A DNA stretch of 64,000 nucleotides from the NCBI RefSeq assembly GCF_004765795.1, contig NZ_SBIV01000010.1:1-64000 (forward strand), read 5' to 3'. This DNA comes from Halorussus marinus. Its GTDB lineage: Archaea > Halobacteriota > Halobacteria > Halobacteriales > Haladaptataceae. The number at the start of each line of letters is the position of its first letter. Position 1 is the first letter of the stretch. Below the pieces are notes generated by a model that searched no databases, had not been told where the DNA came from, and worked only from the letters and a program-made list of their open reading frames with translations. Shown piece by piece: positions 34,579-36,594 of this stretch. The position numbers and the translations under genes were made by a program.

Positions 34579-34830
34579 GAGCGCCGGGAACAGAGCGCTT
34601 CTCCCGGCCGTTCGGATGGGTGCTCACGCGCGAGATGCTCCGACGCCGACCGCCTCGCGCCGGCGATCCCGGTGGACGAACGGTCGGAAGTCGACCGGTC
34701 GACCGGGGCGTTTCTGGACGGAATACAGCCTTATATCGGTAGTATCCGATTATGTATCTCACGGGCGTCGACCGACCAGATTAATTTTTGTATCATCTCA
34801 ACGCGTATCCTTATGTAGCGCTTTGCCGTC

Positions 34831-34842
34831 ACGATATATCGT
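34831..34842. promoter_or_regulatory. Perfect palindrome at the amt promoter
   Basis: ACGATATATCGT is a 12-bp perfect palindrome ending one base before the ATG of the leader peptide. A TATA-like CTTATGTA lies at 34810-34817. The palindrome therefore covers the expected transcription start and is a candidate operator for nitrogen control. A second inverted repeat, ATCGG-N6-CCGAT, lies at 34735-34750. Confidence 0.45.
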
Positions 34843-34843
34843 A

Positions 34844-34933
34844 ATGCAACAACCGAATGCAGAAGAATACGAGATATTCCTGCACAGTCGTCCAGACGAT
34901 TTGGTCGAAGTGCCGGCCGAGGTGAGAGAATGA
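34844..34933 (+). CDS. 29-residue leader peptide overlapping the ammonium transporter gene
   Basis: The ATG at 34844 lies about 30 nt after a TATA-like box, so the transcript is probably leaderless and this is its first codon. The peptide starts [15 protein letters not shown] and ends PAEVRE. It is acidic and hydrophilic with no signal or metal motif. The last codons overlap the transporter start as ATGA, the usual sign of translational coupling. The function is unknown: it may only load ribosomes, or act as a regulator of the transporter. Confidence 0.5.
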
Positions 34934-36594
34934 CGGCCGCGCCGATGCAGGTCGACCCCGAGGTGCTGGCGAACGGCGTCAACCTCGTGTGGGTGTTGGT
35001 CGTGTCGTTTCTCATCTTCTTCATGCACGCCGGCTTCGCCATGCTCGAAGCCGGGCAGGTGCGCTCGAAGAACGTCGCGAACCAGCTCACGAAGAACCTC
35101 CTGACGTGGAGCGTCGGCGTCGTAGCGTTCTTCTTCGTCGGCGCCGGCCTCTCGTCGGTCGTCGGCGCGGTCACCGGCGCCGGCGAGGCGGCCGCGTTCG
35201 CCACGCTCGACGGCGGGGATCCGAACGCGTGGGTCGACTGGCTGTTCGGGGCGGTGTTCGCGATGACCGCCGCGACCATCGTCTCGGGGGCGGTCGCGGG
35301 CCGCGTGAAGCTCCGGGCGTACGTCTCGTACACGCTGTTGCTCGCGGCGGTCATCTACCCGGTCGTCACGGGGTTCACCTGGGGGCTGGGCTTTCTCGAA
35401 CAGCTCGGGTTCACCGACTTCGCCGGCGGCATGATCGTCCACGGGATGGGCGGGGTCGCCGGGCTGACCGCCGCCTACGTGCTCGGCCCGCGGCTGGAGC
35501 GGTACAACGACGACGGCTCGGCCAACGTCATCCCCGGCCACTCGCTGACCTTCGCGGTTCTCGGGACCCTCGTCCTCGCGTTCGGCTGGTACGGCTTCAA
35601 CGTCGGCACCGCCGCGACCGTCTTCGCGGTCGAGGACGGGGCGCTCGCGCTCGGCGACTTCGCGTACGTCGGCCGGGTCGCGCTCAACACCACGCTCGGG
35701 ATGGCCGCCGGCGCCGTCGGCGCGGCCGCGGTGTCGCTGTACAAGACCGAGAAAGTCGACACTCTCTACGTCGCAAACGGCCTGCTCGCCGGGCTGGTCG
35801 GCGTGACCGCAAGCGCCGACCTCCTCACCTGGTACGGCGGGATCGCGTCGGGCTTTCTCGCGGGCGCCCAGCTACCGATCGTCTTCGAGTTCGTGGAGAC
35901 GCGGCTCAAGATCGACGACGTGTGTGCAGTGTTTCCGGTCCACGGCTCGGCGGGGATGCTCGGCGCGATCCTCCTGCCGTTCTTCAGCGTCGAGGGGTTC
36001 ACCGTCGGCCAACTGATCGCGCAGGTGGTCGGCGTCGGCGTCATCACGCTCTGGACGGTCGCGGCGACCGGCGCGGTGTTCGGGCTGTTCCGCGCGGTCG
36101 GGCAGGCCCGCGTCTCCCGCGAACACGAACTCGACGGCCTCGACAGCGCCGAGCACGGCGTCGACACCTACCCCGAGTTCGGCCGCCCCGACGTGACCGA
36201 GGGCGGAGCCAACGCGGTCCGGACCGACGGGGGCGAACTCCCCAACGCCGGCGAGATCAAGCTGGTGACCGCCGTCGTGCGCCCCGATCGCCTCGGGGAG
36301 GTCAAGACCGCACTCGCGCGGGTCGGCGCACCGTCGATCACGGTGACCGACGTCTCGGGCCGCGGGAGCCAGCCCGCCAAGACCGGCCAGTGGCGCGGCG
36401 AGGAGTACACGGTCGACCTCCACCAGAAGGTGAAAATCGAGTGCGCGGTCGCGGACGTGCCCGCCGACGAGGTCGTCGAGGCGATCCGGGAGGCCGCCGA
36501 CACCGGCGAGCCCGGCGACGGGAAGATCTTCGTGCTTCCGGTCGAGGACGCGGTGCAGGTCCGGACCGGCGCGCGCGGGACGGAAGCGGTGTAG
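34930..36594 (+). CDS. amt: Ammonium transporter fused to a C-terminal P-II domain
   Basis: A 554-residue fusion. Residues 15-400 are an Amt channel with 11 helices: [17 protein letters not shown] near the start, the first pore His in [14 protein letters not shown] and the second in [15 protein letters not shown] linker rich in Asp and Glu follows, then a GlnB/GlnK-like P-II domain from about residue 442 ([21 protein letters not shown]) to the end, with a T-loop region [31 protein letters not shown] proteins normally bind Amt as separate trimers and block it under ammonium surplus; here the regulator is covalently attached. The start overlaps the leader peptide. Confidence 0.92.

Follow-up and report, generated by a model that had tools for sequence, protein, structure and literature searches.

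The amt locus in the window

The window (the whole 64,000-nucleotide stretch of Halorussus marinus DNA that was analysed) encodes an ammonium transporter, Amt, fused to a PII domain of the GlnK type; both domains are recognised with high significance (E values of 4e-93 and 8e-28, respectively). The gene is preceded by a short leader ORF whose features, together with those of the promoter region, are collected in Table 1. The original prediction had described a 29-codon frame which opens at the first ATG past a TATA-like box and whose end overlaps the transporter gene in ATGA, and this was borne out: the ATG (34844-34846) lies 33 nt after the TATA box and the frame is conserved in relatives. 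A perfect 12-bp palindrome had also been noted over the likely transcription start. The palindrome is present at 34831-34842, but not one of 13 relatives fetched from the genus has it intact; it was rejected as a functional element and is probably due to chance.

Table 1. Features of the amt leader region in the window.
Feature	Position	Strand	Basis or remark
Distal TATA-like box TTATAT, -110 from predicted mRNA start	34731..34736	+	Conserved in relatives
Upstream dyad copy CTCACGGGCGTCGA, -83	34758..34771	+	Degenerate in the window; -83/-82 enriched in relatives
Conserved promoter element TCAACGCGTATCC, probable BRE adjoining the TATA box	34798..34810	+	Consensus TCAACnCnAA
Proximal TATA box TTATGT	34811..34816	+	Predicted mRNA start 30 nt on, 34841
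Perfect 12-bp palindrome ACGATATATCGT	34831..34842	.	Not conserved
GTA in place of the ancestral GTG start codon, at the predicted mRNA 5' end	34841..34843	+	Comparison of 99 leaders
Leader ORF	34844..34933	+	29 codons + TGA; frame conserved class-wide, amino-acid selection in own family
Dyad motif TGCACAGTCGTCCA within the leader ORF, +40, candidate operator	34881..34894	.	Position-locked in relatives
Shine-Dalgarno motif GAGGTGA for amt, inside the leader ORF	34919..34925	+	Sequence; 4 nt 5' of ATG
ATGA stop/start overlap of leader ORF and amt	34930..34933	+	Sequence; overlap types in relatives
amt (ammonium transporter fused to a GlnK-type PII domain; 554 aa)	34930..36594	+	PF00909, PF00543

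The comparison included 80 haloarchaeal amt loci and 29 loci from relatives of the window's genome, with some species shared between both sets. The closest relatives fetched were Halorussus species, and the window's own family is referred to below as Halorussus/Haladaptatus. The promoter element that adjoins the proximal TATA box occupies positions -43 to -34 and is conserved at up to 95% per base in thinned leaders. Farther upstream, 46 of 55 thinned leaders have TTATA at -109, -110 or -111, and this distal box may represent a second promoter.

Conservation of the leader frame

All 75 leaders that were detected automatically are open up to a stop codon at the amt start, with overlaps of the type ATGA, GTGA, TGATG or ATGnTAG/ATGnTGA. 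Because this first selection had made use of the ORF, a second set of leaders (n=99) was picked by promoter position alone, blind to the ORF. The stop at the amt start was reached open in 99/99 of these leaders, and a single frame relation was kept in 98/99 across 17 different distances. Leaders shuffled with preserved composition were open in only 22% of cases. The first of the alternative frames was open in 12 of the 75 automatically detected leaders; the second cannot serve as a control, since the TGA within GTGA closes it immediately.

On the tree of amt genes at least 45 changes of the distance between leader start and amt stand against a single change of frame, with the qualification that part of the distance changes fall in the amt N-terminus, where the frame is kept anyway; the length of the leader ORF itself changed at least 38 times. 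In the clade with the changed frame (L048 and L114) the leader still terminates on the amt start. The ORFs range from 21 to 47 codons and the leaders from about 66 to 140 nt. The leader ORF is thus conserved to a greater extent than expected by chance and is apparently translated.

In the sequence scanned, the arrangement is almost confined to amt. A TATA-like box followed 30 nt on by a start codon and a frame of 15-60 codons was found at 97 sites in 1.35 Mb (both strands of the fetched loci and the window); 79 of these frames terminate on the start of a long ORF, which in all but five instances is amt. Five Haloferax loci (L029, L031, L036, L037 and L052) contain two amt genes flanking a PII gene, each amt with its own leader ORF stopping on its start codon. 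Among plasmid-borne divergent amt copies the leader architecture was not found. On a Haladaptatus plasmid (L146, 948-1208) an annotated hypothetical protein of 86 residues precedes a divergent amt and overlaps its start by 8 nt; a promoter of the kind found at chromosomal leaders is missing there.

A second small frame that is conserved was observed in Haladaptatus (L024 6584, L026 6583 and L048 6135, all on the minus strand). It encodes a membrane-like peptide of 30 residues (MSTPTKIVIGTVGLTALAAIVVVFNFWFAA), starts 30 nt after a TTTTAA box and overlaps the start of an ORF of 256-291 aa (MFGERTLPEDVAAVRDEHAP..).

Start codon and predicted mRNA 5' end

The spacing between TATA box and start codon is exactly 30 nt in 73 of the 75 automatically detected leaders, which start with GTG (68) or ATG (7). 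When leaders were chosen by promoter alone, the codon located 30 nt after the TATA box was GTG in 86 and ATG in 5 cases (91/99). The start codon sits in a conserved C-GTG-A context whose first G falls on the expected first base of the mRNA, the C and G at -1 and 0 being found in 98% and 93%, respectively. The ancestral start codon of the leader is a GTG at the predicted 5' end of the mRNA, a feature which the original prediction did not contain.

In the window, as in L104, the codon at this position is GTA and an ATG follows in frame; in the window it is the very next codon, so that the leader ATG of the window would lie 3 nt inside an amt mRNA predicted to start at about 34841. A start codon at the 5' end is missing from seven leaders besides that of the window (L104, L020, L033, L012, the second amt of L029 and the paralogues in L034 and L057), and in all seven an ATG follows in frame no more than 13 codons further on. 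Such repeated in-frame replacement of lost start codons would be difficult to account for in an untranslated frame.

These data bear on the possibility that the leader only carries regulatory sites in DNA, the open frame being a by-product and amt being translated from its own Shine-Dalgarno motif. The dyad described below is locked in position, most species have an SD-like motif before amt and, outside the window's family, substitution rates do not differ between codon positions, all of which would suit such a leader. Nevertheless, we regard this explanation as highly improbable, given that the frame was held with one exception through at least 45 changes of distance, that every promoter-selected leader is open compared with about a fifth of the shuffles and that lost start codons were replaced in frame.

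Selection on the frame and on the peptide

The original prediction proposed an amino-acid comparison of the regions upstream of orthologous amt genes, and this was carried out by means of Fitch counts per codon position, with the start codon and the +40 motif excluded. Outside Halorussus/Haladaptatus, 253, 280 and 265 changes were counted at codon positions 1, 2 and 3, respectively (summed over four length classes), and this flat distribution indicates no amino-acid constraint on the peptide there. In the Halorussus/Haladaptatus family the counts were 67, 48 and 97, with a pN/pS of 0.44 for the whole peptide and of 0.18 for codons 19-25 within Halorussus. The peptide core of the family reads E-[FY]-x-[IV]-F-[LV]-x-S-x-P-D-D-[LI]-V. 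Where the DNA motif overlies the peptide, at codons 14-18, pN/pS is about 1. The frame is consequently conserved everywhere, the peptide only in Halorussus/Haladaptatus, including the window. As far as can be told from sequence, the peptide is kept in the relatives and the predicted mRNA start at 34841 precedes the ATG, so that both grounds named in advance for abandoning the original prediction (a peptide lacking in relatives, an mRNA starting after the ATG) fall away.

The same prediction had considered that the peptide could be a direct regulator. It might act in cis on the ribosome, as arrest-type peptides do, or in trans on Amt, PII or a transcription factor, and the selection on residues outside the operator in Halorussus/Haladaptatus would agree with either. 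Across the class, however, the amino acids drift freely even though the ORF is universal, its length varies from 21 to 47 codons, and the conservation of core codons 14-18 is accounted for by the DNA motif. A peptide that itself regulates is therefore unlikely as the general explanation, while an additional function in the window's family is possible. For the class as a whole, it would be the act of translation up to the overlapping stop that matters, not the peptide made.

Amino-acid attenuation, in which stalling at glutamine or asparagine codons would sense the nitrogen status, was also considered, as the gene is regulated by nitrogen in Haloferax (PMC3831643; PMC6801745). Asparagine is somewhat above the shuffled expectation (6.1% versus 3.8%), but glutamine is not enriched (3.8% versus 4.1% in shuffles), no run of one codon occurs, the codons are not conserved across the class and no alternative stable structure was detected (mean folding z 0.17). 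With the codon signal absent, this candidate was rejected as extremely improbable.

A dyad motif within the leader

The leader contains a 14-bp motif with dyad symmetry (consensus TGGACRnnYGTCCA) which is located exactly at +40 from the predicted mRNA start irrespective of ORF length. A joint matrix detected the +40 copy in 73 of 82 leaders. A second weight matrix, trained solely on +40 copies and applied to 62 thinned leaders, gave 58 matches at +40, 16 at -53 and 22 at -83/-82, compared with a maximum of 2 at any one position in shuffled upstream sequence. In the window the +40 copy is a good match and the -83 copy a weak one (score 6.4). Neither the +40 dyad nor its partner upstream of the promoter was part of the original prediction. 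A dyad-symmetric site that occurs in several copies at fixed positions relative to the promoter is a candidate operator for a dimeric transcription factor.

Since the dyad lies in the transcribed leader, it could also form an mRNA hairpin (UGGAC-N4-GUCCA, a stem of 5 bp with a loop of 4 bases) that controls translation instead of serving as a DNA operator. Copies are present at -53 and -83, upstream of the main promoter, and the arms show no covariation, pair 2-11 being non-standard in 28 of 62 leaders and pair 5-8 in 23 of 62. Both facts make a DNA operator likelier than an RNA hairpin. Moreover, leader folding is no more stable than that of shuffled sequences (mean z 0.17) and no Rfam family was found at its threshold. 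An RNA hairpin at +40 was rejected on these grounds and is very unlikely. With the conserved TATA-like box at -110, transcription could also begin farther upstream and take in the -83 copy; the -83 dyad is located about where a transcript from that box would begin.

The operator pattern YRGACRNNYGTCYA had 11 matches in the window's genome and the reversed control 10, so no regulon could be drawn; a stricter pattern of promoter plus start had zero matches in this genome and missed even amt itself. A scan of the regions upstream of glnA for the amt operator revealed a different conserved element which is only distantly similar. It is possible that amt and glnA share a regulator. The glnA element (TTTACGAATATCCAATTC) is situated about 60-95 nt upstream of the gene (L117, L125, L131, L135 and other loci in the range L116-L145) and resembles one half of the amt dyad; in L145 a perfect dyad of the amt type (TGGACGTTCGTCCA) occurs 165 nt upstream of the first Met. 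The motif published for nitrogen genes of Haloferax, AAAGACTAART (PMC6801745), differs in sequence from the dyad. Proteins of the Lrp/AsnC family are candidate regulators from the literature only (PMC8229911, PMC8143581). On a Natrinema plasmid (L147, 2973-3428) amt is in a row with an unfused PII gene and a gene for an Lrp/AsnC protein, which by its position is a candidate amt regulator.

Proposed mechanism

From the frame, the start position, the overlap, the positions of the motifs and the pattern of selection found in the comparison, the following mechanism can be proposed, and we consider it probable: the leader ORF is translated in a nearly leaderless manner, ribosomes reinitiate on amt and the embedded dyad acts as an operator. 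The amt mRNA would begin at about 34841 with the leader ATG 3 nt from its 5' end, and in most relatives the GTG itself would be the 5' end. Ribosomes would enter the leader ORF by leaderless or near-leaderless initiation, as is common in haloarchaea, translate it, halt at the TGA overlapping the amt ATG and reinitiate on amt, aided by the Shine-Dalgarno motif within the leader ORF. The +40 operator would pair with the upstream copy at -83 or -53, and the sites would be bound by a dimeric, probably nitrogen-responsive transcription factor. In Halorussus/Haladaptatus the peptide is additionally under amino-acid selection.

Coupling through overlapping stop and start codons has been demonstrated experimentally in Haloferax volcanii and was strict in 13 of 14 pairs tested in Haloferax and E. 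coli, the contribution of the SD motif being variable (PMC6728339); an overlap or a very short gap is required (PMC10666635). In the leaders described here the stop overlaps the amt start, and the SD motif, helpful but not essential for coupling, lies inside the upstream frame; an SD-like motif was recognised in 90 of 101 leaders and none in the remaining 11. A coupling device, one of the roles that the original prediction had envisaged, fits a conserved frame which ends on the amt start with an internal SD motif. The further claim that translation of the transporter would depend on translation of the peptide is too strong, as ribosomes could also initiate de novo on amt by way of its SD motif. 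The flat codon-position rates outside the window's family are also expected of untranslated DNA, and as a sign of it they are countered only by the preservation of frame, stop and start codon.

A recent review names ribosome delivery by a short uORF among the proposed functions of coupling and holds FttA to be what probably causes polarity in archaea (PMC12548453). It may be speculated that an operator at +40 makes a transcribed leader unavoidable, and that the ORF accommodates such an operator by keeping ribosomes along the full length of the mRNA. A bolder version of the proposed mechanism, which we hold to be doubtful though conceivable, is a class-wide nitrogen switch with its operator inside a leaderless ORF. 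The regulator would bridge the sites at +40 and -83/-53 and so control transcription, the same 14 bp would be read as codons, with amt output set by translation of the ORF, and in one family the peptide would have become a further signal, received for instance by the fused PII domain or by the regulator.

The regulatory network of ammonium uptake in haloarchaea is said to be poorly understood, with no conservation of the methanogen regulators NrpR/NrpA (PMC6801745). Studies of haloarchaeal amt genes found nitrogen control of transcripts and no mechanism (PMC3831643, PMC6801745). The conserved dyad offers a concrete bait for the missing regulator of ammonium uptake, and the presence of leader ORFs in Haloferax, a genus with a model species, makes the proposal directly testable; in Haloferax volcanii amt2 is HVO_0086, and amt1 is presumably HVO_0084 (PMC6801745). 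The leader, a small frame left out by gene annotation, may also be a naturally occurring case, found throughout the class, of a leaderless uORF bringing ribosomes to a gene with an SD motif, and bears on the interplay between leaderless initiation and coupling.

Comparison with known systems

Small ORFs have likewise been reported in haloarchaeal leaders, namely the uORFs in long 5'-UTRs of Haloferax volcanii (PMC4983044); that survey was confined to 5'-UTRs of 150-250 nt, longer than the amt leaders, and amt is absent from its table. A leaderless first cistron before a second one is the basis of an engineered, synthetic bicistronic design for Corynebacterium (PMC10367133), whereas the present arrangement is natural and conserved. 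No description of the amt leader ORF was found in the literature searched, which covered few subscription papers and preprints, and its novelty is accordingly provisional. With this proviso the leader appears to be an undescribed variant of the 5'-terminal coupled uORF, combined with a candidate new nitrogen operator.

The coupled gene pairs of Haloferax volcanii (Huber et al., PMC6728339, PMC10666635) belong to the same class of organisms and have the same stop/start overlaps (ATGA, GTGA, TGATG) with the SD motif in the upstream frame. In those pairs the upstream partner is a normal gene, whereas here it is a leader ORF of 21-47 codons at or near the predicted mRNA 5' end, which moreover carries a candidate DNA operator.

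Mycobacteria also have leaderless short ORFs, among them polycysteine attenuators. As proposed here for the amt leader, these ORFs are leaderless, lie at the 5' end and affect the downstream gene (PMC4633059), but the amt leader has no run of sensing codons and its peptide is not conserved outside one family. The 5'-terminal AUG uORFs of E. coli (Beck et al., PMC4965119) resemble it in having a short ORF before an SD-led gene and, as predicted for most amt leaders, the start codon at the 5' end; alteration of the E. coli uORF changes downstream expression in some cases. The amt leader differs from them in belonging to another domain of life, in starting mostly with GTG, in its class-wide occurrence at one gene, and in its stop/start overlap and embedded dyad. 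These 5'-terminal uORFs of E. coli and the mycobacterial leaderless short ORFs are the nearest working analogues of the haloarchaeal amt leader.
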